From positions 186,001-250,000 of the forward strand of contig NZ_JACHXL010000001.1 of NCBI RefSeq assembly GCF_014192115.1: DNA of 64,000 nt, given 5' to 3'. The first letter of the stretch is position 1; each line of letters starts with the position of its first letter. A program made the translations under genes and the position numbers. This document shows, piece after piece, positions 3,183 through 26,798 of the stretch. The stretch is from Psychrobacter luti. GTDB taxonomy: Bacteria > Pseudomonadota > Gammaproteobacteria > Pseudomonadales > Moraxellaceae. The notes under the pieces were generated by a model. It was given only the letters and a program-made list of their open reading frames with translations, ran no database searches and had not been told where the DNA came from.

Positions 3183-3782
3183 ATGACTACATCTATCACG
3201 TCTTCCTCAGCTTCCACAGACAATCCGCCTAACGTATCGATGGCGGTCATCTACCATAGTAATTATGGACATACTAGGCGCGTTGCCGAAGCCATAGTAA
3301 CGGGCGCGCGCCAGCAATTGCCAGAGGCACAAGCCAAAGCTGTTGATGTCAATGATGTCGATTGGGATTTTTTAGATCAAGCAGATTTGTTGGTTTTTGG
3401 TAGTGCCGTATATATGGGCAGCGTGACAGCAGGCTTTAAGACTTTTATGGACGCGACATCCAAGCGTTGGTATCACGGCAAATGGCAAGGCAAATGGGCA
3501 GCCGGTTTCGCCAACTCAGGTGGGCTTAGCGGCGATAAGCTTGCTGTACTACAGCAGATTTGTCTTTATAGCATGCAGCATGGGATGAACTGGATAGGAT
3601 TGCCGCTCAGACCGACGGGACATGAGCCTCATGATTTAAATCGTTTATCGAGTAATTTGGGTTTGATGACCCAGTCGCTTGATGGTCCACCTGAAGAAAC
3701 TCCAGGGAAAGGCGATATTGATACGGCTATGTGGTTTGGTGAGCATTTAGCGAAGACCATTATTAAGCATCAGCCTAGATAG
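3183..3782 (+). CDS. Flavodoxin-fold NAD(P)H:quinone oxidoreductase, WrbA-like
   Basis: This 199-residue soluble protein has the FMN-binding signature of the flavodoxin/WrbA group: a beta strand, then YHSNYGHTRRVAEAI for the phosphate loop (residues ~25-40). LLVFGSAVYMGSVTAGFKTFMD binds the flavin ring, and WAAGFANSGG precedes the third flavin loop. The GSP-x-YG motif of true WrbA is replaced by GSAVYMGS, so it is a WrbA-like relative rather than a certain WrbA. Expected activity is FMN-dependent two-electron reduction of quinones or related acceptors. It appears monocistronic, with its own promoter region and a strong terminator downstream. Confidence 0.8.
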   Translation: MTTSITSSSASTDNPPNVSMAVIYHSNYGHTRRVAEAIVTGARQQLPEAQAKAVDVNDVDWDFLDQADLLVFGSAVYMGSVTAGFKTFMDATSKRWYHGKWQGKWAAGFANSGGLSGDKLAVLQQICLYSMQHGMNWIGLPLRPTGHEPHDLNRLSSNLGLMTQSLDGPPEETPGKGDIDTAMWFGEHLAKTIIKHQPR

Positions 3783-3866
3783 CAGATGAAAGCCTCTAGA
3801 AACTAGCGTAAGCAGTCACTCAGGCGCTATTAGTATTTTGAGGGCTTTATGAAGCGCAAAGCAAGA

Positions 3867-3897
3867 AAGCAGATATCAATCGATATCTGCTTTTTTT
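3867..3897. terminator. Intrinsic terminator (usable by both convergent genes)
   Basis: The 9-bp arms gcagatatc (3869-3877) and gatatctgc (3882-3890) flank a 4-base loop and are followed by seven T. The stop codon of the minus-strand lipoprotein gene (3896-3898) lies inside the T-run, so the two transcription units converge on this hairpin. Confidence 0.85.
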
Positions 3898-4189
3898 ATT
3901 GAGCATGATTTTGTGTTGATATCTTTTTAACTGTAATCGTTCTAGTAACATTATTATCAATGATAAAGGGGTTATCAACAGTATTCTTAGCAGGAATAAT
4001 CATAACTAATGGGGCAATAGAGGTAGAGATATTGTCATTCGGCACAGCTGTCAGTGGTACATCTTTGACAGCGAAAGCTTTCGCGGGAATACTTTTGACA
4101 GGAATAGGGCTTTCGACAAATTGGAAAGACTGGCAACCTGTCAGGGGCATCGTCGCTAAAAGTAGACAGATAAAGGTAAATGATTTCAT
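3896..4189 (-). CDS. Small predicted lipoprotein, function unknown
   Basis: The 97-residue product begins with a short basic n-region (MKSF) and a hydrophobic core. A lipobox, LTGC, has its Cys at residue 19, predicting export and lipidation. The mature part is a repetitive Pro/Val/Ala/Lys sequence (VKSIPAKAFAVKDVPLTAVP) with a basic, Thr/Ile-rich end and no recognised domain. A longer plus-strand open frame overlaps it antisense, but the signal peptide and the terminator just downstream support the minus-strand reading. The promoter would lie in the 4190-4878 spacer, which holds a Fur-box-like sequence 219 bases upstream. Confidence 0.6.
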   Translation of the reverse strand: MKSFTFICLLLATMPLTGCQSFQFVESPIPVKSIPAKAFAVKDVPLTAVPNDNISTSIAPLVMIIPAKNTVDNPFIIDNNVTRTITVKKISTQNHAQ

Positions 4190-4407
4190 AAGGACATCTC
4201 AGGTAATAGTTAGCAACGTCAAGATAGTTAGTAACGTTAAAATAATGAGCGACGTTAGCATGGCGCTTATCATAAACAAAATAAAGGATAAGGCAAAAGA
4301 GTATTGGTTATTAAGGTAGACATAATACATAAGCTATAGAGAACAGGAGGTATAACGCCATAGAAAGGTAAATCTCCCTAACTGCTATGTATCTATTATG
4401 TACACTC

Positions 4408-4425
4408 ATAATTGATAATGATAAG
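4408..4425. promoter_or_regulatory. Possible Fur-box-like operator
   Basis: Three abutting hexamers, ATAATT-GATAAT-GATAAG, match the NAT(A/T)AT repeat description of Fur binding sites. It lies in the spacer between the lipoprotein gene and the cytochrome/amine oxidase unit. In AT-rich DNA such matches arise by chance, so this is a weak call. Confidence 0.3.
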
Positions 4426-4581
4426 CAAAAAAGTCTAATTTTATTAGGTAAATAATTTATTATATTCGTTTTTATGAATTAAAATAAGTTTTATCGGACT
4501 TTAGTGATTGTTTTCTAAAGGATTATTCTAATTATTTTTAATTATAATATAGAAAAGCATATTATCTATTAGGATTTGGCA

Positions 4582-4668
4582 ATGATTCAACGTTTCTTTA
4601 AGTTTTGTAAAAACATGCAGTCAATGCGTTACTATTCAAGTAATAGTCGTGAAATAGTCTTACATTAG
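4582..4668 (+). CDS. Possible 28-residue small protein
   Basis: An ATG at 4582 lies seven bases after AGGA (4571-4574) and 34 bases after a TATAAT-like box (4543-4548). The frame encodes 28 residues starting MIQRFFKFCK and ends with TAG. The peptide is basic and aromatic with one Cys. I do not recognise it. The ribosome site and spacing are the only support, so it may be chance. Confidence 0.25.
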   Translation: MIQRFFKFCKNMQSMRYYSSNSREIVLH

Positions 4669-4878
4669 TGAGGTGAGTAGACATTATTTAGCAACTATCT
4701 TTGTTAGATTGTTTTTATTACCCTGTTTTATGAAGCATTTACTGGACGATTTGCTACCTCATTTAATGGATTATCCATTGGGCATTATAAATCATCAGTT
4801 ATAAAAACTTGCCCAATATCAAATGTCTTATCCCAACAATAATTACAACACCCTAGGTGCCAGCTATATGAGGATATT

Positions 4879-6318
4879 ATGAAGCCACTTTCTGTGATGT
4901 TATCGATGCTAGCCATTGGTATTACCTCCAGTGCCGTGATGGCTGAAGGTGTTAACCTTCCTAATGCCAGCTTACCCAATGTAAGCCCTGCCAATAGCGA
5001 GCTTGTCAACCGCGGTGCATATATTGCCCGTGCTGCTGACTGTATGGCGTGCCATGGTGAGGATTACACCGGCGGCACAGCGATTGAAACTCCGATGGGA
5101 GAGATTTATTCAACCAATATTACCCCCTCTAAACGTTACGGTATCGGCGATTATACCGAAACGGATTTAAAGAACGCTTTGCAAAAAGGTCGTGCACCGA
5201 GCCATATGCTGTATCCAGCCATGCCGTATCCTTCTTATAGCGGTATGAAAGAAGAAGATATCAGCGCATTGTTTACTTATTTGCAAACTGTTCCGGCAGT
5301 CGATGAAGCCCCGAAGCACAAAACCAATTTACCATTTCCTTTTAATATTCGCAGCTTAATGCTTGGCTGGAATTTTCTTAATGTACCGTCTACTGAAAAG
5401 CGCGACGGACTGAACGAGACGCAAAAACGCGGTGAATATCTGGTCAACAATTTAGAGCATTGCGGCACTTGTCATACCCCGCGTAATAGCACCATGGGTT
5501 TTGATAAAAAAATGTACTTATCAGGTGCTCAGCTTGGTCATTGGCATGCGCCAAATATCACGCCTGATGAGTCGAGCGGTATTGGCAGTTGGAGTGAGCA
5601 AGATATTATCACCTATCTACGTACCGGTGAGCTAGACCAACGCGCTTATGCGGGTGGTCCCATGGGTGAGGCAGTCGCGCATAGTACGCGATATCTAAAG
5701 AATGAAGATTTGAGTGCCATTGCCTCTTACCTAAAAGCCGTACCTGCCATTCAAACAGACGATAAAGTCTCTGCTGTCGATGTATCGCGCTTGCCAACGC
5801 CCGTCAATGAATCTATTACTCATGACTTACTTGCGCAAAAAGATTATTTAGCGCAAGCAAAAACAGAGGTGAGCAATGGTAGCAATTCACCAGAATCGCT
5901 ATATCTAGCAGCGTGTGGTAGCTGTCACGGTGTCGATGGTTACGGTCAGCCTGATGCGCGTTATGCGCCTATCGTGGGACTCAGCAGTATTCGCCGTGAA
6001 AAGCCTGATGCCCTTGTTAACATGATACTTCATGGGGTAGAGGGAGCGACTGATACGTCGCCTATCATGCCGGGATTCTCAGAAGAGCTGAACAGTGATC
6101 AAATTGCTGGCATTGCCAATTACGTACGTGTCAATTTTGGTGGGCTTACTAAAAGTGAGGTAAGTGCTGCTGATGTCGATCGCATCGCTAACACAGGGGT
6201 GGATAAACCCTTCTTAATCAAGTATGCAGGTTTATTGGCAATCATCGGTATTCTCGTCGCTATTGCGGTCATTATATTTATTATACGAGCCATTTTACGT
6301 TCTAAGCGCCGCCGTTAA
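4879..6318 (+). CDS. Membrane-anchored triheme cytochrome c (alcohol/amine dehydrogenase cytochrome subunit type)
   Basis: The 479-residue precursor has a Sec signal peptide (residues 1-22, ending AVMA). Three CxxCH haem-c sites follow: CMACH (55-59), CGTCH (195-199) and CGSCH (346-350). One C-terminal membrane helix (about 447-470) ends in a basic stop-transfer tail, RSKRRR. The three-domain layout matches the cytochrome subunits of membrane-bound alcohol and gluconate dehydrogenases, which pass electrons from a periplasmic dehydrogenase to ubiquinone or a terminal oxidase. AGGATATT provides a ribosome site before the ATG. The next genes encode an exported flavin amine oxidase and a second cytochrome c, so it probably accepts electrons from that flavoenzyme. 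The partner and final acceptor are inferred. Confidence 0.85.
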   Translation: MKPLSVMLSMLAIGITSSAVMAEGVNLPNASLPNVSPANSELVNRGAYIARAADCMACHGEDYTGGTAIETPMGEIYSTNITPSKRYGIGDYTETDLKNALQKGRAPSHMLYPAMPYPSYSGMKEEDISALFTYLQTVPAVDEAPKHKTNLPFPFNIRSLMLGWNFLNVPSTEKRDGLNETQKRGEYLVNNLEHCGTCHTPRNSTMGFDKKMYLSGAQLGHWHAPNITPDESSGIGSWSEQDIITYLRTGELDQRAYAGGPMGEAVAHSTRYLKNEDLSAIASYLKAVPAIQTDDKVSAVDVSRLPTPVNESITHDLLAQKDYLAQAKTEVSNGSNSPESLYLAACGSCHGVDGYGQPDARYAPIVGLSSIRREKPDALVNMILHGVEGATDTSPIMPGFSEELNSDQIAGIANYVRVNFGGLTKSEVSAADVDRIANTGVDKPFLIKYAGLLAIIGILVAIAVIIFIIRAILRSKRRR

Positions 6319-6552
6319 TTGGACATTAGCTATTTGTAATGACTTTTATTGAAATTGTTTTGACTTAAATATGCTCAATTGACGTCATACAAATAGCAAG
6401 AAACTCAATCAAACAGCGGACTATTAATCTTATAAATGCGTTTTAGGCAGCTATTATAAAACAATTATTATAGGGCAGGGATTCACGGCAATACGGTAGC
6501 GTAGGGCAGCTTGGCAAATAAGCGCAGAATTATGCCAAGCGGATAAATAGCA

Positions 6553-6582
6553 TAAATACTTATTAATAAAGATAAGTATTTA
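6553..6582. repeat. Perfect 11-bp inverted repeat
   Basis: The arms taaatacttat (6553-6563) and ataagtattta (6572-6582) are exact reverse complements separated by taataaag. No T-run follows, so it is not a classical terminator. It could be an operator, an mRNA-stability hairpin or a processing site between the two coding regions. Confidence 0.6.
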
Positions 6583-6591
6583 TCAATAGAA

Positions 6592-6626
6592 CCACTGTCT
6601 AAGAGCCAGTGTCTAAGAACCTGTGT
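6592..6626 (+). repeat. Short imperfect tandem repeat, 14-base unit
   Basis: Two near-identical units, ccactgtctaagag (6592-6605) and ccagtgtctaagaa (6606-6619), are followed by a partial third (cctgtgttta). They lie about 40 bases before the flavoenzyme start codon. Confidence 0.5.
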
Positions 6627-6665
6627 TTACCGTTATGCACGAACGTCTACTTTAAGGATATTATT

Positions 6666-8267
6666 ATGAAAGACATGCTTCAATCACCAACGCGGCGCCA
6701 ACTGCTTTCGATGATTGGTAAAACAGCGGGCGCAACCGCGATGTATCAGGCAATGACGACGTTAGGATTTGCATCAGAGTCGAGCTTTAAGGAAACCATG
6801 GACCTTAAGGGTGCACCGCCGGGTGCTAGTATCGTCATTCTTGGCGCTGGACTTGGCGGCCTGACCGCTGCTTACGAGCTACGTAAAGCGGGCTATGATG
6901 TCAAAGTGCTCGAGTTCCAGAACCGTGGCGGCGGTCGTAGTTGGACGCTTAATAGCGGTGATAAATATACCGAGCTTGGCGGCGAAGAAGTTACCTGCGA
7001 TTTTGAAGAAGGTAACTATTTTAATGGTGGACCATGGCGTCTGCCTAGTCATCACTATGCCGTCTTCCACTATTGCAAACAGTTCGGCGTTGAGATGCAA
7101 CCATTTGTGCAAACCAATGATCGTGCTTATTTGCATCGTACTACCCATTTCAATGGTGTGCCGCAGCGTTTAGGTGATATAAAAAATGACATCCAAGGTC
7201 ATGTAGCGGAACTGCTGTCAAAGTCAGTGAACGTCGGTGGTTTAGATCGTTCGGTTAATACTGAGGATAAAGAGAAGCTACTAGAAGGCTTAAAAGGTTG
7301 GGGCGTACTCGATAAAGACTATCGTTACCGTGCCAGCAATGCGACCAGTAAGCATCGTGGCTATAGCGTTTTCCCAGGTGGTGGCTTGATGCCTGATGAG
7401 AAGCCATCGAAGCCTTTGCCTATCAGTGAGATATTAGACTCGGGCATGTGGGCGGATATTTATGGCAATCATATGACTTATGGTCATCAACCAACGATGT
7501 TTCAGCCAGTGGGCGGTATGGGCAAAATCGGTGATGCTTTCACCCGTGAATGCCGTGATATGATTGAGTTTAATGCCAAAGTTACAAAGATTCACCAAGA
7601 TGAGACTGGCGTGACAGTCGATTATGTCGATAGCAATAGCCCTGATGGCGCAACCAAAACTATTCGCGCTGATTGGTGTGTCTGTAATATTCCGCTGACA
7701 GTATTGACTCAAATCGATATTAACGTCTCAAAACCAATGAAAGAAGCCATGGCAGCAGTGCCTTACGAGACTTCTTATAAAGTTGGCTTAGAGTTCAATC
7801 GCCGCTTTTGGGAAGAGGATGAGTGGATCTATGGCGGCTTGACCTATACTGATATGCCGATAGCCCAGATTGCTTATCCTTCAGAAAATATGTTTAAAAC
7901 GGGTACGGGGGTGTTATTAGGCGCTTATGGTTACGGTCCAACCTCTTATAAGTTTAATACCTTAACCCCGCAGGAGCGTATCAATGTTGCGCTGGCTTAC
8001 GGTAAATATATCCATCCTCAGTATCCAAAAGAGTTCCGCGCCGGTACATCAGTAGTATGGCACCGTATCCCGTGGACACTAGGTTGTTATGGTATTTGGA
8101 ATGAATCGACTCGTCGTCAGCATTATGACACCTTGTGTAGTATTGATAACCGTATTGTACTCACGGGCGAGCATTGCTCACACATTCCGGCATGGCAAGA
8201 AGGCGCTATTTTATCTGGTATGGATGCCGCTAAGCGCCTACATAAAAAAGCAAAAATGCTGGGTTAA
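6666..8267 (+). CDS. Tat-exported flavin amine oxidase/dehydrogenase, probable covalent FAD
   Basis: The ATG at 6666 follows AAGGATATTATT and gives 533 residues; an upstream in-frame extension has no ribosome site. The N terminus has a twin-arginine motif, TRRQLL (residues 9-14), then a hydrophobic stretch ending near residue 36, predicting folded export to the periplasm. A Rossmann dinucleotide motif, GAGLGG (60-65), is followed by an acidic strand end. The RGGGRSW and C-terminal TGEH...WQEGAILSG motifs are those of the flavin monoamine oxidase family. Cys474, in WTLGCYG, sits where monoamine oxidases attach FAD through cysteine. The flanking cytochrome c genes suggest electrons go to cytochrome rather than to oxygen, as known for NicA2-type enzymes. 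The substrate, presumably an amine, is unknown. Confidence 0.85.
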   Translation: MKDMLQSPTRRQLLSMIGKTAGATAMYQAMTTLGFASESSFKETMDLKGAPPGASIVILGAGLGGLTAAYELRKAGYDVKVLEFQNRGGGRSWTLNSGDKYTELGGEEVTCDFEEGNYFNGGPWRLPSHHYAVFHYCKQFGVEMQPFVQTNDRAYLHRTTHFNGVPQRLGDIKNDIQGHVAELLSKSVNVGGLDRSVNTEDKEKLLEGLKGWGVLDKDYRYRASNATSKHRGYSVFPGGGLMPDEKPSKPLPISEILDSGMWADIYGNHMTYGHQPTMFQPVGGMGKIGDAFTRECRDMIEFNAKVTKIHQDETGVTVDYVDSNSPDGATKTIRADWCVCNIPLTVLTQIDINVSKPMKEAMAAVPYETSYKVGLEFNRRFWEEDEWIYGGLTYTDMPIAQIAYPSENMFKTGTGVLLGAYGYGPTSYKFNTLTPQERINVALAYGKYIHPQYPKEFRAGTSVVWHRIPWTLGCYGIWNESTRRQHYDTLCSIDNRIVLTGEHCSHIPAWQEGAILSGMDAAKRLHKKAKMLG

Positions 8268-8298
8268 TATGAATAACTATAAAAATTCAGAGGCTATC

Positions 8299-8976
8299 AT
8301 GGACAATGCAATCGTGAATAAGGCAGTCGTGAAGAAAAAAGTCATGAAAAACATGACCCCCAAACTTTTGACTGCGATGCTGCTAAGTGTGATGAGCAGT
8401 GCAGCACTTTTAGGCTGTAGTCAACAGTCAGATGATGAAGTGACCATTTCTACTGTACAAGATCAAGATTCCCTGACAACCAATGACTATCAAGCAAGTC
8501 GTAATACGGGAGCGTGGGGCGGTGTTTATATGAGCCGTGAGGAGCTTGCCGCGCCTGCTATCAACATCGTTGATAGCAGCTCACTTCCCACTATGGATAA
8601 CGATCCAAGTATTGCCGAATGGGATGCCAAGTTTGAAGGAACGAATGCTTTTGTGACGACAGATGGTAAAAAGCTATATCATGACTCTTGTGCCGCTTGT
8701 CATATGCATAAAGGCGAGGGTGCTTATGGCGCAGGTTATTATCCGCCTCTCGCCAATAACAGCAAAATGCAGTCGAAGTATTATATTATTGATATCTTGA
8801 TTAATGGCTTCCGAGGTATGCCATCATTCCATAAGATGATGAACGATGAACAGATGGCAGCGGTCACTCAGTATGTGGTCAGTGATTTAAATGGTTATAC
8901 TGATACGGTTACCGCTGAAGATGTGGCACAGCTAAGACACGCGGTTCCACCAGCTAGCGATCCAAGTGACGAGTAA
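8299..8976 (+). CDS. Monoheme cytochrome c lipoprotein
   Basis: This 225-residue precursor has a lipobox, ALLGC (Cys at residue 40 from this start), and one haem site, CAACH (131-135). A conserved MPSF segment probably supplies the axial Met. I chose the ATG at 8299 because AGAGG lies five bases upstream. ATGs at 8269 (overlapping the end of the flavoenzyme gene region) and at 8344 (giving a standard-length signal peptide) are alternatives. The gene starts only 31 bases after the flavoenzyme stop, so the two are almost certainly co-transcribed. It is most simply the primary electron acceptor of the flavoenzyme, relaying to the triheme protein, or an outer-membrane tethered carrier. Confidence 0.85.
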   Translation: MDNAIVNKAVVKKKVMKNMTPKLLTAMLLSVMSSAALLGCSQQSDDEVTISTVQDQDSLTTNDYQASRNTGAWGGVYMSREELAAPAINIVDSSSLPTMDNDPSIAEWDAKFEGTNAFVTTDGKKLYHDSCAACHMHKGEGAYGAGYYPPLANNSKMQSKYYIIDILINGFRGMPSFHKMMNDEQMAAVTQYVVSDLNGYTDTVTAEDVAQLRHAVPPASDPSDE

Positions 8977-9100
8977 AGCAATCGGTTAATGTTTTAGCCA
9001 ATAGTATTTAAGGACTGGTTTCTAGGATAGATAATTTTAGAATAGCCAGTATTTAGTATCATGGATTGCTGCTATAAAAATTGCTCTATTGTTCCAAGTC

Positions 9101-9139
9101 AAAAAAAGCGCCTAATGAATTTATTAGGCGCTTTTTTTA
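9101..9139. terminator. Strong bidirectional terminator
   Basis: The arms aaaaaaagcgcctaat (9101-9116) and attaggcgcttttttt pair perfectly around gaattt. A-run and T-run on the two sides serve the cytochrome gene (plus) and tolB (minus). Confidence 0.92.
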
Positions 9140-9204
9140 TATTTATAGATTTGATTTCTAGGATTTGCTTAATTAGTAAAATAACAAATTAATAAGTTCA
9201 TAAG

Positions 9205-10497
9205 CTACTTAGGACTCGCTGACCAAACTGGCGAGCGGATAGTACCTTGACCAGATTTACCAAATGATTCGCCACCATTGAGTGATTTAATAGTCAGTAC
9301 GCCTTTACCGCCTTGCTTTGAAGCGTAAACCACGCGCTTACCATTGGGCGAAAAGCTTGGAGCTTCGTCGATACCGGTATTGCCTAAATTGGCAGTGACC
9401 GCGCCGCCACTGTTCATGATGGCAGCTGAGCGACCACTTAAAAAAGCAATTTGTGAGCCATCGCTACTGAACTGCGGGCTGGTCGCATAGCCACTGCTTG
9501 ATACCTGAGTCGTACGTCCTGAGCCAAATTCATAACGATAAATACGCGGTTTGTTAAACCCTGCACGGTCACTGACGAATACAAAAGATTTGCCATCAGG
9601 TGCGTAGTTCGGCTGCACTTCACTGCTTGGCCAATTGGTGATACGTCGAGGCGTACCGCCGCTAGCGCTCATCTCATAAATATCAGCACTGCCTTCAAAG
9701 CTGCTAGAAAACAGTATTTTGCTGCCATCGGGTGAAAATGAGGGGCTAAGGTTGCTACCAGGGAAGGGTGTTAATGGCGTTGCACCGCCGCCGCTCACGC
9801 TTTGTACATAAATAACAGGGTAAGACTTATCGCGCTGGACTGAATAAGCGATGCGATTGCCATCGGGTGACCAAGTAGGCGAGAAAATAGAGCCTGCCAC
9901 TTCTGTAATGGTTTTGGCATTTTCGCCATCAGCATCCATCACTTTTAGGCGCGATATCTTCTCTTTGCCAGTGCCAATCTCTTCGATATAAGCAATGCGT
10001 CCTGAGAAGTCACCGGGAATGCCCGTGATAAGCTCATATACTTTATCAGCGATAACGTGAGCTGCGTAACGCATGCTTTCTTTATTATTATCAGCAGTGA
10101 GGCTTTGTTTGCCTTCTATCACGCGCCCAGATTTGATATCGATAACTTCATAATCGGTGACGACTTTGCCGCGATTACTGCGCGTGCTACCGACCACAAG
10201 ATAAGGGATACCCATACTTTGCCATACAGGTAGTGTGCCCGCCAACTCGCTACTACTACGCGGCTGCTGCGGTAGGTTTTGACTGGTGACTTTTAGCTCT
10301 GTTTTACTTAAATCATTTAAGATAATAGGCGATAAGGTAGTGTCACCAGCAAATGGTACAAAAGCCACTTGGTTTTGCTGCACTGGAATCTCATAATCCA
10401 ACTCTAGAACGACGGGTGCGGCAAAGACGCTAGGAGCAAGCAATAAGCTTGAGGTGCTGGCAAGTAAAGAGATGCATAGTTTTTTATGGATGCGCAT
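9205..10497 (-). CDS. tolB: Tol-Pal system beta-propeller protein TolB
   Basis: The 430-residue precursor has a signal peptide (MRIHKKLCISLLAS... cleaved after VFA near residue 27). An N-terminal alpha/beta domain is followed by a six-bladed propeller, seen as repeated WSPDG, FSPDG and YAPDG motifs from about residue 200. TolB is the periplasmic exchanger between Pal and the TolA/TolQR motor, important for outer-membrane constriction. AGGAG lies 12 bases before the ATG used here and six bases before a TTG at 10503, so the longer TTG start is possible. It is the last gene of tolQRAB; no pal gene follows, unlike the common tolQRAB-pal order. Confidence 0.95.
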   Translation of the reverse strand: MRIHKKLCISLLASTSSLLLAPSVFAAPVVLELDYEIPVQQNQVAFVPFAGDTTLSPIILNDLSKTELKVTSQNLPQQPRSSSELAGTLPVWQSMGIPYLVVGSTRSNRGKVVTDYEVIDIKSGRVIEGKQSLTADNNKESMRYAAHVIADKVYELITGIPGDFSGRIAYIEEIGTGKEKISRLKVMDADGENAKTITEVAGSIFSPTWSPDGNRIAYSVQRDKSYPVIYVQSVSGGGATPLTPFPGSNLSPSFSPDGSKILFSSSFEGSADIYEMSASGGTPRRITNWPSSEVQPNYAPDGKSFVFVSDRAGFNKPRIYRYEFGSGRTTQVSSSGYATSPQFSSDGSQIAFLSGRSAAIMNSGGAVTANLGNTGIDEAPSFSPNGKRVVYASKQGGKGVLTIKSLNGGESFGKSGQGTIRSPVWSASPK

Positions 10498-15513: not shown

Positions 15514-18500
15514 ATGAACCCAGTAGACCAGTTTACCCCGCAAGAGCCGATTTTATTTAAGCCGGTAGATTTGCTAGCGCCAGACTATATTGCCCAGTCG
15601 TCAGAAACGCTGCACGCCCGTATTTCACCTTTATATAGCGTGGATGAAGAACGTTGGTTATCCGAGTTATTGCCACTTGCCAAGCCGACAGATAGCGAAC
15701 GTGAAGCCGCTGCCACGCAGACGCGCCAACTGGTCGAGCACGTACGTAATGATGGCAAAGCTGTAAAAATGGTTGACTCATTATTGCTTGAATATAGCCT
15801 TGATACCCAAGAAGGTATTCTGCTCATGAGCTTAGCTGAGGCATTGATTCGCGTACCAGACAATTATACTGCCGATGCGCTGATTCATGACAAAATGAGT
15901 GTGGCTGACTGGAAAAAACATCTAAAAAACGACAACGGTTTTATGGTCAATGCCTCGACATGGGGCATGATGATGACCGGCCGTGTGGTCAGCATTGATA
16001 GTAACACGACAGCATCTGGATTTTTGGACCGTATGACTAAAAAAATGGGTGAGCCAGTCATTCGTAGTGCGATGCAAAAAGCCATGCGTATCATGGGTCA
16101 TCAGTTTGTGTTGGGTGAAACCATTGAAGACGCTAATAAAAACAGCCAACCTTATCGTAATAAAGGCTATACCTATTCATTTGATATGCTAGGTGAAGCA
16201 GCTATTACTCATAAAGACGCTGAAAAATACTTTAATGACTATCTGCATGCGATTAAAGCGACTGCCAGTATTAAAGTTAAAGAGGGTATGCCAAAGCCTT
16301 CGGTATCTATTAAGCTATCTGCCTTGCATCCGCGCTATGAAGCAACCCAAGAAGAGCAGGTCATGGGACTATTGCGTCAACGCTGTTTGCTATTGATTGA
16401 AGCGGCGCGTGAGGTCAATGTCGATATCAGTATCGATGCAGAAGAAGCTGATCGTCTTGAGATATCGTTAAAACTATTTGAGTCTCTATATCGCGATAAT
16501 TTGACAGCGGATTGGGATGGCTTAGGTATTGTAGTACAAGGTTACTCAAAACGCGCGATTGCTATTTTAGTGTGGCTAGCGCGCTTGGCAACTGAAGTCG
16601 GCGATCGTATTCCAGTACGTTTGGTAAAAGGTGCATATTGGGATACTGAGATTAAACTGGCGCAGCAAAAAGGTCTGTCAGGCTATCCTGTGTGGACGCG
16701 TAAAGAAGGTACCGATACCGCTTATCTTGCGTGCGCGCGTTTCTTATTATCCGAACATTTACGCGGGCTAATCTGGCCACAGTTTGCCACGCATAATGCG
16801 CACACGCTAGCGTCGATTATGACCATGAGTGCGCATAGAGATTTTGAGTTCCAACGCCTACACGGTATGGGCGATGCGCTTTATGACCATATCTTACAAG
16901 CTTATCAAATTCCAGTACGTATCTATGCGCCCGTTGGCGCGCATAAAGACTTGCTACCATATTTGGTACGTCGTCTACTTGAAAATGGTGCCAATAGCTC
17001 GTTTGTCCACCAGTTATTAGACAAATCTTATCCGATTGATAAGCTAACCGTGCATCCGTACGACAAATTATTGACCAACGATACTTTACATAATCCTGAT
17101 ATCCCGCTGCCGTTAGATATCTATGGCGAGCGCCGTGCCAGTTTCGGTCCCAATATCTTTGTAGAATCGCAATGGCTCCCGTTTAAAGCTGCTATTGATG
17201 GCCATCTACATAAAACGTGGTCAGCGACTTCTATTATTAATGGTAAAGCAGTTGATGAGTACGAAGCGGATGGTAACACCCATAAGCTTGAATCTCAGAA
17301 AGTGCGTGCGCCTTGGAATCATGAAGTCATCGCTGGTGATGTCAAATATGCCAATGCGGATTTGGCCGTTCAAGCTATCGATGTGGCGGTAGCAGGGCAA
17401 AGTGCATGGCAAGCAGTACCGGCAGCGCAGCGAGCTGCTATATTGCGTAAAGTAGCAGATTTATATGAAGAAAACTATGCTGAATTGATGGCGCTATGCC
17501 AGATTGAAGCTGGTAAAACCATGCAAGACGGTATCGATGAAATCAAAGAAGCGGTTGATTTTTGCCGTTTTTATGCCGACGAAGCAGAGCGTTTAGACGA
17601 CGTAGTCCATGAGTTTACAGATTTGTCTGGGAAAGACTCTCGTCAGGTTTATAAAGCGCGCGGTACTTTTGTATGTATCAGCCCTTGGAATTTCCCATTG
17701 GCGATCTATACGGGTCAAATCGTGGCGGCACTTGCAGCAGGCAATACAGTAGTAGCTAAGCCTGCTGAACAGACCAGCTTAATTGCTCATTTTGGTGCGC
17801 AGTTAATGTACCAAGCAGGTGTGCCAGCAGAAGCATTACAGCTAGTGATGGGTGCAGGCGATGTTGGTGGTGCTTTGACGGCAGCGGATAATATTGCAGG
17901 TGTTATCTTCACCGGTTCAACCCAAACGGCGCAGCGTATCAACCAAAGCTTAAACAATCATGTGCAAGCCAACGGCGAGCTACCAGTCTTTATTGCTGAG
18001 ACGGGTGGTCAAAATGCCATGATTGTTGACTCAACCGCATTACCTGAACAAGTGGTTAAAGATGCGGTATTGTCAGCCTTTGGCTCGGCCGGCCAACGTT
18101 GTTCAGCTTGTCGTATCTTATGCGTGCAAGAAGAAGTCGCGGATAATTTAATCGAATTGCTACAAGGTACTATGGCAGAATTGGTCGTCGGTAATCCACT
18201 GCACGTAACCACAGACGTAGGTCCGGTGATTGATGCGGATGCCAAGCGCAGTCTGGAGGCGCATATCGAACGTATGAGCGCTGAGCCAACCGCAAATATT
18301 TTGGCGCAGACACCTATCAGTGCAAGCTCGGTTGTCAGCGAAGAGCACTCTACCTTCGTCTTGCCAACAGCGATTGAGGTCAAAAGTATCGATGTCATCG
18401 GTGGCGAGCATTTTGGTCCGATATTGCATGTATTACGTTATAAAGCACCTGACCTTAACAAGCTTATCGATGCCATTAACGGTACTGGTTTTGGTTTGAC

Positions 18501-18741
18501 TTTAGGTATTCATAGCCGTATTGAAAATATTGCCGAGCATATTGAGCGCCGTGCGTTTGTCGGTAATACCTACATCAACCGTAACCAAATTGGTGCCGTC
18601 GTCAACGTTCAGCCATTTGGTGGCTGTGGTCTATCCGGTACAGGTCCAAAAGCAGGTGGTCCACATTATGTGGCTCGCTTGATGCAGCTGCGTTCTGAGT
18701 CAATAACGACTGAATCACTCACTCAAACACAAATCGCATAA
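15514..18741 (+). CDS. putA: Bifunctional proline dehydrogenase / glutamate-semialdehyde dehydrogenase PutA
   Basis: This 1075-residue enzyme oxidises proline to P5C with FAD and then P5C to glutamate with NAD. The FAD-binding proline dehydrogenase barrel is at about residues 130-450 (KPSVSIKLSALHPRY, DAEEADRLEISL, VRLVKGAYWDTEIK, FATHNAHT, FEFQRLHGMGD). The ALDH part starts near residue 560, with SPWNFPLAIYTGQ, FTGST, ETGGQNA and catalytic Cys863 in SAGQRCSACR. There is no N-terminal ribbon-helix-helix domain, so unlike E. coli PutA it should not bind its own promoter. It also lacks the C-terminal ALDH-like domain of long PutAs; that domain is encoded by the next gene, whose ribosome site overlaps this stop codon. 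The 3' end (QTQIA) is a clean terminus. Confidence 0.96.
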   Translation: MNPVDQFTPQEPILFKPVDLLAPDYIAQSSETLHARISPLYSVDEERWLSELLPLAKPTDSEREAAATQTRQLVEHVRNDGKAVKMVDSLLLEYSLDTQEGILLMSLAEALIRVPDNYTADALIHDKMSVADWKKHLKNDNGFMVNASTWGMMMTGRVVSIDSNTTASGFLDRMTKKMGEPVIRSAMQKAMRIMGHQFVLGETIEDANKNSQPYRNKGYTYSFDMLGEAAITHKDAEKYFNDYLHAIKATASIKVKEGMPKPSVSIKLSALHPRYEATQEEQVMGLLRQRCLLLIEAAREVNVDISIDAEEADRLEISLKLFESLYRDNLTADWDGLGIVVQGYSKRAIAILVWLARLATEVGDRIPVRLVKGAYWDTEIKLAQQKGLSGYPVWTRKEGTDTAYLACARFLLSEHLRGLIWPQFATHNAHTLASIMTMSAHRDFEFQRLHGMGDALYDHILQAYQIPVRIYAPVGAHKDLLPYLVRRLLENGANSSFVHQLLDKSYPIDKLTVHPYDKLLTNDTLHNPDIPLPLDIYGERRASFGPNIFVESQWLPFKAAIDGHLHKTWSATSIINGKAVDEYEADGNTHKLESQKVRAPWNHEVIAGDVKYANADLAVQAIDVAVAGQSAWQAVPAAQRAAILRKVADLYEENYAELMALCQIEAGKTMQDGIDEIKEAVDFCRFYADEAERLDDVVHEFTDLSGKDSRQVYKARGTFVCISPWNFPLAIYTGQIVAALAAGNTVVAKPAEQTSLIAHFGAQLMYQAGVPAEALQLVMGAGDVGGALTAADNIAGVIFTGSTQTAQRINQSLNNHVQANGELPVFIAETGGQNAMIVDSTALPEQVVKDAVLSAFGSAGQRCSACRILCVQEEVADNLIELLQGTMAELVVGNPLHVTTDVGPVIDADAKRSLEAHIERMSAEPTANILAQTPISASSVVSEEHSTFVLPTAIEVKSIDVIGGEHFGPILHVLRYKAPDLNKLIDAINGTGFGLTLGIHSRIENIAEHIERRAFVGNTYINRNQIGAVVNVQPFGGCGLSGTGPKAGGPHYVARLMQLRSESITTESLTQTQIA

Positions 18742-18752: not shown

Positions 18753-19445
18753 ATGGCGACTGAATTTAAAAAGAATCATGCCCAAGTTTGTGAATCTTGG
18801 CGATTACTTGGCGCGGTCAATCGCGCGACGTATCTACAAGCAGCTATTGCAAAATTGGCCTTGCTGACTGGCGATGTCAATAAAGCAAAGCGTTTATTCA
18901 CTCATTTATTGAGTGCCGCGCCCAGCTTAGACGAAGTACAGCGTATGACGGGCGCGACGGGTGAGTCTAACGATTTATACGTAACCGCTCGTGGCAAAAC
19001 TATGGTCATCGGCGGTGAGTCTGCACGCGCAATGGCAGTACTTGGGCAGTTAATCGCCGCATTATTGACTGGTAACGAGGTGATACTACATTGCCCAAGC
19101 CAAGATGAGATGTGCAATGAGGCAGCAAAGATACTGTATGACACTGGTATCAGCGACGATGTATTGAGTGTGGCGAACGATTCGCAAACCGTGACGCTGC
19201 TATATATCGATCGTTTGGCTCAAGTTGCAGTCTCAGGCAATAACAGCGAAGTACAAGCCATCAGTCAAGGACTTGCCAATACTGACGGTATCTTGACGCA
19301 AGTCATTAGCGTCACTGATATGGAAGGCTTTTCAGAGATGCTGACGCCTGATTACCTCTATCGCTTTGTCACCGAAAGGGTAAGAACCATTAATACCACA
19401 GCGATTGGTGGTAATGCGAGCTTATTAGAGCTTGGGACGGAGTAA
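18753..19445 (+). CDS. Stand-alone PutA C-terminal (ALDH-superfamily-like) domain protein
   Basis: The 230 residues match the C-terminal domain of long (type B/C) PutA proteins. GATGESNDLYVTARGK corresponds to the GPTGERNTY...R block of E. coli PutA. The ending RFVTERVRTINTTAIGGNASLLELG corresponds to the conserved final ER-x-SVNTAAAGGNASLMTIG type tail. In fused PutAs this domain caps the tunnel that channels P5C between active sites and helps assembly. Here it starts 11 bases after the putA stop, in another frame, with its own AAGGAG site, so it is a true separate gene. I infer that it binds the PutA chain to rebuild a long PutA. It has no catalytic Cys of its own. Confidence 0.8.
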   Translation: MATEFKKNHAQVCESWRLLGAVNRATYLQAAIAKLALLTGDVNKAKRLFTHLLSAAPSLDEVQRMTGATGESNDLYVTARGKTMVIGGESARAMAVLGQLIAALLTGNEVILHCPSQDEMCNEAAKILYDTGISDDVLSVANDSQTVTLLYIDRLAQVAVSGNNSEVQAISQGLANTDGILTQVISVTDMEGFSEMLTPDYLYRFVTERVRTINTTAIGGNASLLELGTE

Positions 19446-21317: not shown

Positions 21318-23012
21318 ATGATTAGTTTCTATCTGAATGGAAAGTACCATGAGATAAGCCACCTCAATCCGAATACGACGGTACTTGAGTATCTGCGCTT
21401 GCACGAATATCAAACTGATACTAAAGAAGGCTGCGGTAGTGGGGATTGTGGCGCATGTACGATTATGGCGCAACGTTTGCCTAATCATGCGATGAGCGAT
21501 TCTAGTGACAGCACTCCTTTTTATACCTTTAACTCCTGTATTGCTATATTGTCGTTGATGGATGGTCATCATTTAATGACCGCTTCTTACCTAGCGGACA
21601 ATCCAGCACATCATCCAGAGCGGGCGCTATTGCATCCTGCACAGCAGGCAATGGTTGATTGCCATGGCTCGCAATGTGGATTTTGTACTCCTGGTTTTGT
21701 GATGTCTCTGGCGAATCTTTATGAAAATAATCGTATGCAACAACAAAAGAATGCCAAGCAGGGTAGCTCAAATGATGACCCAAGCTATGATGATATTGTC
21801 GCCGCAATTTCAGGCAACCTATGCCGCTGTACCGGTTATCGACCCATTATCGAAGCAGGTCTAACAATGGGTAAAATTGGTCAGCAAAGAGACGCTGATG
21901 AAATGGTAGCAAAAGATTTAACGATAAGCTTAGCGACGGATGCGATGGCAAGTAACAGTAAGTCGCTACCTAAAAACGAGTCGTTCAATAAATCGAATCA
22001 AGCGTCAACTATTGAGCCTGCACTGAGTGAAGGGTCGCTGCAGCTATTCATTCCAAAGACAGTGGATGAGTTTAATCAGTTATTAGCTGTATATCCAAGT
22101 GCAACAATTTGGGCGGGTGGTACGGACTTGGGATTAAGCATTACCCAGCACTTGGTTGACCATGAAGTGATTATTCAGCTGTCTGCTATTGATAAACTAA
22201 AAGTGTGGTCATTGTCTGAATTAAATAAGTACACTGATAATAAAAAATCAGTACAAGAATTGACGTTTGGGGCTGGCATGACATATCAGCAAATGCTGCC
22301 AATACTGGAACATAACTTTCCTGCCTTTGCAGCATTATTCGCAAGAACCGCTTCACCGCAAATACGTAATATGGGTACGCTTGGCGGTAATATTGCTAAT
22401 GCCTCGCCAATCGGAGATTTACCACCAATCTTGCTGGCGTTAGAGGCACGCATTCATTTGCGTCATTGTAATCCCAATAATAGAGATATTGGTGGCGAAG
22501 ATGCCAGTGCTAAGGATGAAAGCAATGAACATAACAAAACATCCTATGTCGACGAGATAATACCTTTATCAGAATTTTTTCTAGATTATAAAAAAACAAA
22601 GCTACGGGCAGGCAGTTATATCGTTGCTATTCATATGCCACTGATGCAGGCTAATCAACATCTATTTATTCATAAAATTAGTAAGCGTTATGAAGATGAT
22701 ATTTCCGCTTGTTTGGTTGCCGTAAGAATCGATTTGTCAGCAGATGGTATGACTATCGACCATGCAAAAATCGGTCTCGGCGGTATGGCGGCTATACCCT
22801 TATTAGCAAAAAATTGCCAGCAAGCACTCGTAGGTCAGCCCCTTGAGCTTGCAAGTTTTAAGAAAGCTGCAAAAGCACTACCGATGGATGTCTCGCCATT
22901 AACAGATGTCAGAGCAAGCCGTGAGTATCGCTTGCATGTGGTGCAACGTTTACTAATTAAGTGTGGCAAGCAATTGTTGAAAGAGACGCAAACTGAGAGA
23001 GAATCATCATGA
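21318..23012 (+). CDS. xdhA: Xanthine dehydrogenase small subunit XdhA (2Fe-2S and FAD)
   Basis: This 564-residue subunit carries two [2Fe-2S] clusters and FAD. The plant-type ferredoxin motif CGSGDCGACTI is near residue 40. The second cluster is formed by CGFCTPGF (near 118) and CRCTGYRPI (near 172). A CO-dehydrogenase-type FAD domain follows, with WAGGTDLG and ASPQIRNMGTLGGNIANASPIGDLPP. It passes electrons from the molybdenum subunit to NAD. It is longer than typical (~480-500) owing to polar insertions at about residues 195-235 and 390-410. Its stop overlaps the xdhB start by four bases (ATGA), a tight operon junction. Confidence 0.95.
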   Translation: MISFYLNGKYHEISHLNPNTTVLEYLRLHEYQTDTKEGCGSGDCGACTIMAQRLPNHAMSDSSDSTPFYTFNSCIAILSLMDGHHLMTASYLADNPAHHPERALLHPAQQAMVDCHGSQCGFCTPGFVMSLANLYENNRMQQQKNAKQGSSNDDPSYDDIVAAISGNLCRCTGYRPIIEAGLTMGKIGQQRDADEMVAKDLTISLATDAMASNSKSLPKNESFNKSNQASTIEPALSEGSLQLFIPKTVDEFNQLLAVYPSATIWAGGTDLGLSITQHLVDHEVIIQLSAIDKLKVWSLSELNKYTDNKKSVQELTFGAGMTYQQMLPILEHNFPAFAALFARTASPQIRNMGTLGGNIANASPIGDLPPILLALEARIHLRHCNPNNRDIGGEDASAKDESNEHNKTSYVDEIIPLSEFFLDYKKTKLRAGSYIVAIHMPLMQANQHLFIHKISKRYEDDISACLVAVRIDLSADGMTIDHAKIGLGGMAAIPLLAKNCQQALVGQPLELASFKKAAKALPMDVSPLTDVRASREYRLHVVQRLLIKCGKQLLKETQTERESS

Positions 23013-25597
23013 GCCATCAATCATCCTTATTTGACACTTATAGCATTCGCCGCGTACGTCCGCCTAAAAACAAAATCGGCACTTCTGCCAAACATGATAG
23101 TGCGATAAGCCACGTCATGGGAACAGCAACTTATGTGGATGATATCTTAAAGCCGCAAGGTACCTTACATCTGGCAGTCGGTAAAAGCAGTCACGCTCAT
23201 GCTCGGGTAACCAGTACGGATCTCAGCGCTGTTAGAGCGGCTGACGGGGTGATTGATGTTTTAAGTTTTAAAGACTTACCCGCTCAGACGGATATCGGCG
23301 CGGTGTTTGACGGTGAGCCATTGATGGTAGGTGAGATCACAGAATACGTGGGTCAGACGCTGTTTTTAGTCGTTGCAACCACTCACCGTGCTGCTAAAAA
23401 GGCGGTGCTCAAAGCAGTCATCGAATATGAACCATTGTCAGCGATACTGAGTATTGACGAGGCCTTAGAGCAGGAGCAGTTTGTACGTCCCAGCCACTTC
23501 ATGCAGCGCGGTGATACCGAAGCGGCACTTGCAAATGCACCTATGCGTATTGCAGGCCATATTCATATGCTGGGACAAGAGCACTTTTATTTGGAAGGAC
23601 AAGTGTCCTATGTCGTGCCTTGCGATGATGGCGGGCTTGAAGTCTATACCTCATCACAGCATCCGAGTGAAGTGCAGCAGCTGGTCGCTGAGGTGACGGA
23701 TTTGCCATTTCATGCCGTCAATACGATAGTACGCAGAATGGGTGGCGGCTTTGGCGGCAAAGAAACCCAAGCCGCTGCATGGGCATGCTTTTGTGGAATC
23801 GTCGCCAAGCGTCACAATGTACCTGTCAGTATGCGCTTGGATCGTCAAGATGACATGGTTGTGACCGGTAAACGCCATGAATTTGCCAACCGTTATGAGG
23901 TAGGTGTCAACGAGGCAGGACAAATCCTTGGGGTCGATATGCAGCTTGCTGGCTTGTGTGGTTATGCACCAGACTTGTCCGATGCTATCGTCGATAGAGC
24001 GATGTTCCACTGTGATAACGCTTACTATTATCCAGCCGCGCAGGTAGCAGGACATCGCTGCAAAACGCACACGGTGTCGAACACTGCCTATAGAGGTTTT
24101 GGCGGGCCTCAAGGTCTGATGACGGCCGAATATATGATGGATCATATTGCCTATACTTTAGGCAAAGACCCTTTGCAAGTGCGTTTGACGAACCTCTACC
24201 AAAATGGGCAAAGTACTCATTATGGTCAGCCAATCGAGCATTTTGATTTGGCAACGATTATGGAGACACTGGCAAAAGATTGTGATTATGATCAGCGTCG
24301 CCAGCAGATTATAAAAGCCAATGAGCAAGCCGAAGCTGAAGGCAGCGATAAGCGTCTTGGCATTGCCCTAACGCCTGTGAAGTTTGGCATCTCATTCACC
24401 GTGCAGACGCTCAATCAAGCAGGTGCTCTGGTACACATCTATACTGATGGCAGCATCCACCTTAATCATGGCGGGACAGAGATGGGGCAAGGGCTATTTG
24501 TCAAAATTGCTCAAATAGTCGCCAATGAGTTTGATGTGGATTTGGATACCGTAAAAGTATCTGCAACGCGTACCGATAAAGTACCCAATACCTCGCCGAC
24601 CGCGGCCTCATCTGGCACCGATATCAATGGTAAAGCAGCGCAAAATGCTTGCTTAACCATTAAGGCACGTATCGTCGAGTTTGCCGCTAAGTATTTTGAA
24701 GTGGCAAAAGAAGACATACGCTTTGAGCGCAATTATGTCTATATTGGTGATAAGGAAGATTTTACTTTTGCTGAAATGGTGCAGTTGGCGTATCAGCACC
24801 GCGTTAGTTTATCTTCAACTGGTTACTATAAAACGCCAAAGATATTTTACGACCGCTCTAAAGCGTGGGGTCGACCCTTCTTTTACTTCGCTTTAGGCGC
24901 GGCGTGCGCTGAGGTTGAAATAGATATTTTAACTGGTGAGTATAAAGTACTGCGCTGCGACATCTTACATGATGCAGGACAGTCGATTAACCCCGCTATC
25001 GATATTGGTCAGATTGAAGGTGGCTTTGTGCAAGGTATGGGGTGGCTGACAACTGAGGAGCTTACTTGGGATAAAAAGGGCGCGCTAGCATCTAATAGTC
25101 CCGCCAATTATAAAATTCCAACGTCGCACGATTTACCAAAACAATTTACAGTTAAACTGTACGACCGTAAAAATGAAGAGCAAACCATTTACAATTCTAA
25201 AGCAGTTGGCGAGCCACCTTTTATGCTGGCAGCTAGCGTTTGGTGTGCTATCAATAATGCAGTCGCAAGCTTGGGTGTTTATAAGAAAAACCCAGATCTT
25301 ACGGTGCCTGCAACCCCAGAGGCAGTATTAAAAGCGGTGATGCGCATGCAAGGCGAGGAGTGGGAGATTGACACGAATATAAACTTTGATGCGATTGATA
25401 ACTTGACTAGAGATGAGGAGGACAACTGCGGTATTGACGACAATAAAGTTAAGCCACAACTTGTGCCGCATGCCGAAGATATCAAACCGTCAGAGGTCGA
25501 GGGTCAGACAGTCGACGAGCAGCCAGAAGCGATAGAGCATCCTAACGTATCAACGGCTAGAGGCCCTGCCCATAGTGAGCCGACGCACAGTGAATAA
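23009..25597 (+). CDS. xdhB: Xanthine dehydrogenase large, molybdenum-binding subunit XdhB
   Basis: This 862-residue subunit binds molybdopterin and hydroxylates hypoxanthine and xanthine to urate. Family motifs are RRMGGGFGGKE, AYRGFGGPQG, GGTEMGQG, SSGTDINGKAAQNAC, and GEPPFMLAASVW containing the catalytic Glu. The enzyme ends conventionally near residue 800, after which a ~60-residue acidic Glu/Asp/Pro-rich tail follows (from about DNLTRDEEDN). This tail is unusual for the family and may be disordered. The last 23 bases overlap the proposed GTG start of xdhC. It is the middle gene of xdhABC. Confidence 0.95.
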   Translation: MSHQSSLFDTYSIRRVRPPKNKIGTSAKHDSAISHVMGTATYVDDILKPQGTLHLAVGKSSHAHARVTSTDLSAVRAADGVIDVLSFKDLPAQTDIGAVFDGEPLMVGEITEYVGQTLFLVVATTHRAAKKAVLKAVIEYEPLSAILSIDEALEQEQFVRPSHFMQRGDTEAALANAPMRIAGHIHMLGQEHFYLEGQVSYVVPCDDGGLEVYTSSQHPSEVQQLVAEVTDLPFHAVNTIVRRMGGGFGGKETQAAAWACFCGIVAKRHNVPVSMRLDRQDDMVVTGKRHEFANRYEVGVNEAGQILGVDMQLAGLCGYAPDLSDAIVDRAMFHCDNAYYYPAAQVAGHRCKTHTVSNTAYRGFGGPQGLMTAEYMMDHIAYTLGKDPLQVRLTNLYQNGQSTHYGQPIEHFDLATIMETLAKDCDYDQRRQQIIKANEQAEAEGSDKRLGIALTPVKFGISFTVQTLNQAGALVHIYTDGSIHLNHGGTEMGQGLFVKIAQIVANEFDVDLDTVKVSATRTDKVPNTSPTAASSGTDINGKAAQNACLTIKARIVEFAAKYFEVAKEDIRFERNYVYIGDKEDFTFAEMVQLAYQHRVSLSSTGYYKTPKIFYDRSKAWGRPFFYFALGAACAEVEIDILTGEYKVLRCDILHDAGQSINPAIDIGQIEGGFVQGMGWLTTEELTWDKKGALASNSPANYKIPTSHDLPKQFTVKLYDRKNEEQTIYNSKAVGEPPFMLAASVWCAINNAVASLGVYKKNPDLTVPATPEAVLKAVMRMQGEEWEIDTNINFDAIDNLTRDEEDNCGIDDNKVKPQLVPHAEDIKPSEVEGQTVDEQPEAIEHPNVSTARGPAHSEPTHSE

Positions 25598-26699: not shown

Positions 26700-26798
26700 G
26701 CCATAAGATATAGACCATCAATACTGATTTCTACCTTTACCATTAATTTATATTCCAACTAAAACGTTCGGTATGATCAAGTGACGGGAGATTTACCC

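Follow-up and report, generated by a model that had tools for sequence, protein, structure and literature searches.

A predicted respiratory L-amino-acid dehydrogenase of Psychrobacter luti that pairs an L-amino-acid-oxidase-like flavoenzyme with a triheme membrane cytochrome c

Among the closest described systems is the lao-cccA-ridA cluster of Gluconacetobacter diazotrophicus, where a Tn5 insertion in lao abolishes the formation of indole-3-acetic acid (IAA) from tryptophan and ccm mutants show 5% IAA. The authors proposed that the cytochrome aids the oxidase, reported the cluster in Caulobacter and Xanthomonas as well, and state that RidA hydrolyzes the imines that arise from L-amino-acid oxidases (PMC5053998). 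An L-amino-acid oxidase located in the periplasm, together with its Rid partner, is described in Chlamydomonas (PMC10805672). Across the flavoenzyme superfamily, a twin-arginine translocation (Tat) signal together with an adjacent cytochrome c gene marks dehydrogenases that use the cytochrome, less clearly so in clade 1 (Akram 2025, PMC12224317). Here we describe a gene trio at positions 4879-8976 of a 64,000-nucleotide stretch of Psychrobacter luti DNA (the window; contig NZ_JACHXL010000001.1, positions 186,001 to 250,000), in which a flavoenzyme gene stands between two cytochrome c genes. The trio probably encodes a periplasmic, membrane-attached respiratory L-amino-acid dehydrogenase; we infer the substrate class, the acceptor, the electron path, and the role of Rid from sequence comparisons.

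The three genes lie head to tail on the + strand in the order triheme cytochrome c, Tat-signal flavoenzyme, lipoprotein monoheme cytochrome c. A preliminary description of this DNA had placed a flavoenzyme with a twin-arginine signal between a triheme membrane cytochrome and a monoheme lipoprotein, and all three + strand genes were confirmed. The features are as follows.

4879..6318, + strand: triheme cytochrome c, 479 residues, with three Pfam Cytochrom_C stretches, of the fructose/alcohol-dehydrogenase cytochrome-subunit type
5041..5055, + strand: heme motif CMACH (CXXCH) at residue 55 of the triheme protein
5461..5475, + strand: heme motif CGTCH (CXXCH) at residue 195 of the triheme protein
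5914..5928, + strand: heme motif CGSCH (CXXCH) at residue 346 of the triheme protein
6223..6291, + strand: C-terminal transmembrane helix of the triheme protein, about residues 449-471, a hydrophobic stretch identified by eye
6319..6665, + strand: 347-bp gap between the triheme and flavoenzyme genes, from the open reading frame (ORF) positions
6666..8267, + strand: flavoenzyme, 533 residues, PF01593 at 177.9 bits, probable start ATG 6666
6666..6773, + strand: twin-arginine signal region of the flavoenzyme, with the motif TRRQLLSM
7038..7040, + strand: Arg125 of the flavoenzyme, aligned with the carboxylate-binding Arg90 of snake L-amino-acid oxidase
7779..7781, + strand: Lys372 of the flavoenzyme, aligned with snake Lys326 on the flavin N5 side
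7926..7928, + strand: Tyr421 of the flavoenzyme, aligned with snake Tyr372
8269..8976, + strand: lipoprotein monoheme cytochrome c, 235 residues, start ATG 8269, the candidate direct electron acceptor
9101..9138, + strand: terminator-like hairpin 3' of the trio, a 17-pair stem followed by a T run

The flavoenzyme probably starts at ATG 6666 rather than at GTG 6609, the start in the mechanical ORF list. Its Tat signal was judged by the twin-arginine motif alone; R11 is kept in 78/78 and R10 in 77/78 of the rows with a residue there. The lipoprotein gene follows the flavoenzyme gene at a distance of 1 bp, and its product has a single CXXCH motif (CAACH, residue 141) and an LLGC lipobox with Cys50 at 8416-8418; its true start may alternatively be Met26 (8344). 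A terminator scan found no terminator-like hairpin between the trio genes. The sigma-70 promoter scan was not above chance (14 sites versus a mean of 14.6 in shuffles), an internal promoter in the 347-bp gap is possible, and an Rfam scan of 3700-9300 gave no match.

The flavoenzyme falls into the fold group of the Rhodococcus opacus and snake L-amino-acid oxidases, matching it over the whole chain in sequence and fold with the Arg, Tyr, and Lys residues kept. Its best solved relative by sequence is the R. opacus L-amino-acid oxidase 2jae (279.6 bits, E 4e-82, residues 47-529). Among the best 60 of 106 solved matches, the snake L-amino-acid oxidases come next, and outside the L-amino-acid and L-glutamate oxidases the top score is the 53 bits of monoamine oxidase B; 5ts5 is labeled an amine oxidase in the sequence matches and a snake L-amino-acid oxidase in the fold matches. 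A structure predicted from 19 sequences (mean predicted local distance difference test score, pLDDT, 67.7) gave 1954 Foldseek matches headed by 2jae and 2jb1. Another snake enzyme, numbered alike, uses Arg90 and Tyr372 to bind the substrate, with Lys326 near flavin N5 (PMC3971498), and in ancestral L-amino-acid oxidases the Arg that hydrogen bonds the substrate is essential and its partner Tyr is important (PMC9814856). The corresponding Arg125, Tyr421, and Lys372 of the window enzyme were assigned by counting residue numbers by hand in a pairwise alignment. Arg125 and Lys372 are invariant in the 79 aligned flavoenzyme rows, window included (79/79), and Tyr421 is kept in 75/79, with Phe in the other 4. 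The conservation of these three residues favors an α-amino acid over a simple amine as the substrate.

The best solved relative of the triheme protein is the fructose dehydrogenase cytochrome subunit 7w2j_C (E 4.6e-92, residues 19-478), and three heme c domains extend over the full length of the subunit, as in the triheme subunits of GMC-type dehydrogenases. The preliminary description had recognized a triheme protein of the alcohol/fructose-dehydrogenase type and had called its pairing with this kind of flavoenzyme unusual, and both statements hold. The hydropathy score of the triheme C-terminal tail is 2.6-3.5 in most first-trio orthologue rows. The lipoprotein cytochrome is placed where triheme-less relatives have their cytochrome, which makes it the likelier direct acceptor. 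In fructose dehydrogenase the triheme subunit contacts the flavin subunit directly, so the triheme protein may also be the first of the two trio cytochromes to receive electrons. Two genes of the window's genome match PF00115. One belongs to a cbb3 oxidase as ccoN and precedes ccoO, and this pair scores above the NCBIfam cut-offs; the second received no NCBIfam name at E <= 1e-20. The trio adjoins cytochrome c oxidase genes in Roseinatronobacter, and a flavoenzyme-cytochrome pair does so in Dinoroseobacter; on these plasmids the unit lies directly beside the oxidase genes (L196:1454-8035 and L200:857-8027, respectively; loci fetched from other genomes are labeled L). This adjacency favors an electron route ending at an oxidase over one ending at quinone.

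In the mechanism that we propose, Tat would export the flavoenzyme folded with its flavin adenine dinucleotide (FAD). The enzyme would grip the carboxylate of an L-amino acid through Arg125 and Tyr421 and oxidize the substrate to the 2-imino acid, and the reduced FAD would give up its two electrons singly to a c-type heme. The first acceptor would most likely be the lipoprotein cytochrome, acting with the triheme membrane protein; the latter would hold the unit at the membrane and pass electrons to the cbb3-type cytochrome c oxidase, or possibly to quinone. The imine would yield the 2-oxo acid and ammonia, aided in Psychrobacter by a separately encoded Rid protein of the exported type.

A contig scan with the flavoenzyme confirmed 526 relatives, of which the best 80 were kept, giving 79 loci; the closest named homologue, at 98% identity, belongs to Psychrobacter. 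Among these best 80, 65 Psychrobacter loci hold 66 flavoenzyme copies, and a triheme sequence upstream and a monoheme cytochrome downstream accompany every copy (66/66). Absence of such trios elsewhere would have counted against the preliminary description and was not observed, and the order kept in 66/66 Psychrobacter copies bears out the view of the exported flavoenzyme and its cytochromes as one conserved unit. The triheme frame is intact in 63/66 copies and split in 3 (L093, L118, L132); in L132 the flavoenzyme frame is split as well. All 85 triheme-bearing rows carry the monoheme cytochrome downstream of the flavoenzyme. The flavoenzyme is present in 49/60 genomes of the genus sample, in 57/199 genomes and 3/16 genera of the family sample, and, at E <= 1e-60, in 6/369 genomes of the class sample and 28/398 of the phylum sample, the window's genome being included in each; no relative was found among the viral contigs searched. 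The surroundings of the trio vary: it stands between a flavodoxin-like and a tolB-like gene (as in the window), near other genes, or next to bhcABCD, the names being given partly by eye. Some genomes have two tandem trios at the first site (L037, L038), and the window's genome encodes another full trio at a separate site, its flavoenzyme 80% identical. In Psychrobacter frigidicola, a complete bhcABCD set, for the β-hydroxyaspartate cycle, lies just upstream of the second trio (L045:164-4748 and L098:1295-5876), and all four genes are above the NCBIfam cut-offs.

Linked RidA genes are distributed differently among relatives with a triheme gene and those with a cytochrome but no triheme gene. 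The 70 non-Psychrobacter rows were drawn from several searches; they are a non-random set with near-copies (four from Pseudomonas, two from Marinobacter) and include L036 (26% identity) and L195 (a fragment). The 81 Psychrobacter rows contain genomes seen twice. L053 duplicates L127 and was removed, and for L131, where the flavoenzyme frame is split, the longer piece alone was used. By a similarity test, the 70 rows divide into four groups: a cytochrome without a triheme gene (43), RidA without a cytochrome (16), neither of the two (4), and a triheme gene (7). RidA on the same strand accompanies 28 of the 43 and, within 4.5 kb, none of the 7 triheme rows (Fisher p 0.0017, relatedness ignored); at L128 a RidA gene may have been missed, since that locus stops 0.7 kb past the flavoenzyme gene. 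The 81 Psychrobacter rows likewise showed no same-strand RidA over this 4.5-kb distance, some loci ending earlier. A heme-motif recheck moved four rows to the cytochrome group, which then has RidA in 32/47, and reduced the 16 rows first counted as RidA without cytochrome to 12. In these four (L034, L035, L180, L183) a one- or two-heme frame unlike the window's cytochromes lies directly downstream, a different cytochrome partner.

The linked Rid copies belong to PF01042 (5/5 tested), a crude test detects a hydrophobic stretch at the N terminus of 41/44 linked Rid frames, and an Arg-Ser pair, whose Arg we take to be the catalytic one, is invariant across 12 copies. A model of the linked-type RidA reaches E < 1e-60 in 5/5 positive genomes, two of which supplied rows to the model, and finds nothing better than 1e-10 in 8/8 triheme genomes. 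A single linked-type RidA query likewise gave no match in the window's genome. Loss of RidA from that genome was considered and rejected, as an unlinked Rid of the exported type is present; it lies at G000:C2:373822-374313 and has a Sec-like signal by eye. Such a signal was read in only four unlinked Rid proteins, and 4/47 unlinked Rid matches start after the signal region.

The unlinked Rid tracks the flavoenzyme across Psychrobacter. With presence set at E <= 1e-100 for the flavoenzyme and E <= 1e-40 for Rid in 60 genomes, and labels entered by hand, Rid is found in 46/49 flavoenzyme-positive and 1/11 flavoenzyme-negative genomes (Fisher p 4e-8). The genome G059, where the flavoenzyme is split and stops interrupt the Rid match, was scored positive for both. 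When the five genomes less than 90% complete are excluded (G014, G032, G050, G057, G059), the counts are 43/46 and 0/9. Of 7 independent pairs on a tree built from mnmG, 5-6 agree with the co-occurrence and 0 contradict it (sign-test p 0.031 at the median, range 0.031-0.063). The sole control, the dispensable window gene for guanine deaminase, shows no such tracking (27/49 versus 5/11, p 0.74).

The origin of the triheme pairing was addressed with a flavoenzyme tree of 79 rows, comprising 68 of the 70 non-Psychrobacter rows (L036 and L195 left out), 10 of the 81 Psychrobacter rows, and the window; it was built by a quick method and rooted at the midpoint. The 18 triheme-linked rows form one clade with a Shimodaira-Hasegawa-like approximate likelihood ratio test (SH-aLRT) value of 94, or 99 without Cobetia. 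The clade holds the window, the 10 Psychrobacter rows, Moraxella atlantae, a Rhodobacterales metagenome-assembled genome, Marivita, Rappaport israeli, Cobetia, Roseinatronobacter, and one further genome, and seven alignment columns distinguish its flavoenzymes. It is nested in a 56-row group in which every row has an adjacent cytochrome. With the midpoint root, a single gain of the triheme gene and loss of the linked RidA would be the simplest account. Over 30 trios, pairwise distances correlate at 0.98 for flavoenzyme and triheme, 0.90 for flavoenzyme and lipoprotein, and 0.90 for triheme and lipoprotein, and none of 2000 permutations was as high. A serious though tentative candidate for the origin is a module swap, in which a fructose-dehydrogenase-type triheme cytochrome may have been taken over once by a flavoprotein of the L-amino-acid-oxidase fold, replacing the linked RidA and giving a three-subunit, membrane-bound respiratory L-amino-acid dehydrogenase complex that was later duplicated within Psychrobacter.

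Several points weigh against the reading of the trio as a respiratory L-amino-acid dehydrogenase. For the triheme clade, no assay of a member enzyme was found. The nearest solved relative bears the name of an oxidase and 12/70 non-Psychrobacter rows have RidA without a nearby cytochrome, which makes it likely that the wider family includes enzymes that use O2. In the Akram survey, clade 1 enzymes, with membrane-bound diheme cytochromes, reacted modestly with their cognate cytochromes, and one clade 2 enzyme reacted with O2 and cytochrome c alike (PMC12224317); gene context is therefore not proof of the acceptor. In the Gluconacetobacter lao mutants cccA and ridA were also down, which leaves the contributions of the parts unseparated (PMC5053998). 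The predicted flavoenzyme structure is of moderate quality and poor in parts of the pocket. The 347-bp gap makes co-transcription of the triheme gene with the flavoenzyme gene uncertain. The triheme proteins of second trios (L039:11001-12386 and others) lack the C-terminal membrane helix, and their attachment must therefore differ. The correlated trio distances are in part expected from common ancestry. Finally, 3/49 flavoenzyme-positive Psychrobacter genomes have no unlinked Rid at E <= 1e-40, 1/11 negative genomes has one, and the unlinked Rid may serve other reactions.

It is unlikely that the trio is instead a periplasmic L-amino-acid oxidase that truly uses O2, with the cytochromes handling peroxide or some other task. 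The oxidase names of the solved relatives, the 12 rows with RidA alone, and the clade 2 enzyme of dual reactivity would fit such an enzyme, but the monoheme cytochrome is present in 85/85 triheme rows and changes in step with the flavoenzyme, and a Tat signal with an adjacent cytochrome c gene marked dehydrogenases in Akram clades 2 and 3 (PMC12224317). The window flavoenzyme has both of these markers, and its gene context, as read from the DNA, argues against a fast-O2-reacting, H2O2-making activity (EC 1.4.3.2).

The preliminary description pointed to a periplasmic amine dehydrogenase akin to NicA2 and Pnao, with polyamines and aromatic amines as substrates to try; this reading is less probable still. 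The superfamily (PF01593), the Tat signal, and the adjacent cytochrome c are common to both (PMC12224317), but the claimed kinship is not supported beyond the superfamily: among the best 60 of 106 solved matches, enzymes other than L-amino-acid and L-glutamate oxidases score at most 53 bits versus 280 for 2jae, and NicA2 and Pnao are not named there, kinship being judged here by scores. The closest relatives in sequence and fold are L-amino-acid oxidases, the carboxylate-binding Arg is present in 79/79 rows, and RidA is adjacent in 32/47 cytochrome-linked rows that have no triheme gene. An amine or polyamine substrate was set aside on these grounds; the sequence, the fold, the carboxylate Arg with its Tyr and Lys, and the linked or co-occurring Rid point to L-amino acids, so tests with polyamines and aromatic amines would probably miss the activity. 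Least probable is a specialist for one substrate, such as glycine oxidized to glyoxylate, in place of a broad L-amino-acid dehydrogenase: the second trio of P. frigidicola lies downstream of the glyoxylate-assimilating bhcABCD genes and malate synthase is upstream in 2/4 Deinococcus plasmids, but the bhc linkage occurs in P. frigidicola alone among the fetched loci (flanks up to ~8 kb), bhcC is above cut-off in 7/36 Psychrobacter genomes with no match in the window's genome, the other two Deinococcus plasmids have different neighbors, and the lead was dropped as not general.

Other loci and window genes yielded further observations. On a Metabacillus dongyingensis plasmid (L203:5995-9258), a flavoenzyme relative is followed by a Rid gene and then by its own tatA and tatC, as if the export machinery travels with the enzyme. 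On the Deinococcus plasmids (L202, L209, L210, L212) the cytochrome c gene is upstream, not downstream; the neighbors are malate synthase and malic enzyme in 2/4 and cysteine synthesis genes with an S8 peptidase in the other 2. Benzoylformate decarboxylase and an aromatic transporter near the Pseudomonas helleri homologue were discarded as partners, since a LysR-like gene on the other strand stands in between. Within the window, a 230-residue ORF at 18753-19445 begins 11 bp after putA (15514-18741) and matches no NCBIfam model at E <= 1e-20; judged by eye, it could represent a piece split off from a PutA-like protein. Xanthine dehydrogenase genes followed by guanine deaminase occupy 21318-28232. 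The xanthine dehydrogenase large subunit and XdhC are above the NCBIfam cut-offs and the small subunit is just below, and guanine deaminase is found in 32/60 Psychrobacter genomes.

If the trio is a respiratory L-amino-acid dehydrogenase, a group often annotated as 'flavin monoamine oxidase' would be respiratory L-amino-acid dehydrogenases through which bacteria could use extracytoplasmic amino acids as a source of energy and ammonia without forming peroxide. It would also answer the question raised by the Gluconacetobacter auxin paper, the role of the neighboring cytochrome. Psychrobacter is a workable system in this respect, with trios that are single, duplicated, or naturally missing.

No description of the trio was found in the open-access literature, subscription papers lying mostly beyond the search. 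The Akram survey started from NicA2, and L-amino-acid enzymes, triheme cytochromes, RidA, and Psychrobacter are absent from its main text; NicA2, Pnao, and the other cytochrome c-using amine dehydrogenases have in common with the window enzyme the superfamily, the Tat signal, the adjacent cytochrome c, and the predicted dehydrogenase logic (PMC12224317). The R. opacus L-amino-acid oxidase (2jae/2jb1) shares its fold and its substrate-binding Arg, Lys, and Tyr with the window enzyme, which differs from it in carrying a Tat signal. To our knowledge, no cytochrome partner figures in the description of the R. opacus enzyme. The lao-cccA-ridA unit resembles the trio in having a Tat-signal flavoenzyme, called an L-amino-acid oxidase, with an adjacent cytochrome c (PMC5053998). 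Its gene make-up is that of the flavoenzyme-cytochrome-RidA loci found here, a likeness judged by gene content. The window trio has the same succession of flavoenzyme and cytochrome c without the linked RidA: the Gluconacetobacter unit has a linked RidA, with no triheme cytochrome named in its published account, whereas the window has a linked triheme gene and Rid elsewhere. Fructose dehydrogenase and the other triheme-subunit dehydrogenases (7w2j, 8hdd, 8gy2) have the same triheme membrane cytochrome. Their catalytic subunits belong to other families and are not amino-acid-oxidase-fold flavoproteins. An L-amino-acid flavoenzyme with an adjacent cytochrome is partly known; its pairing with a triheme membrane cytochrome looks new.

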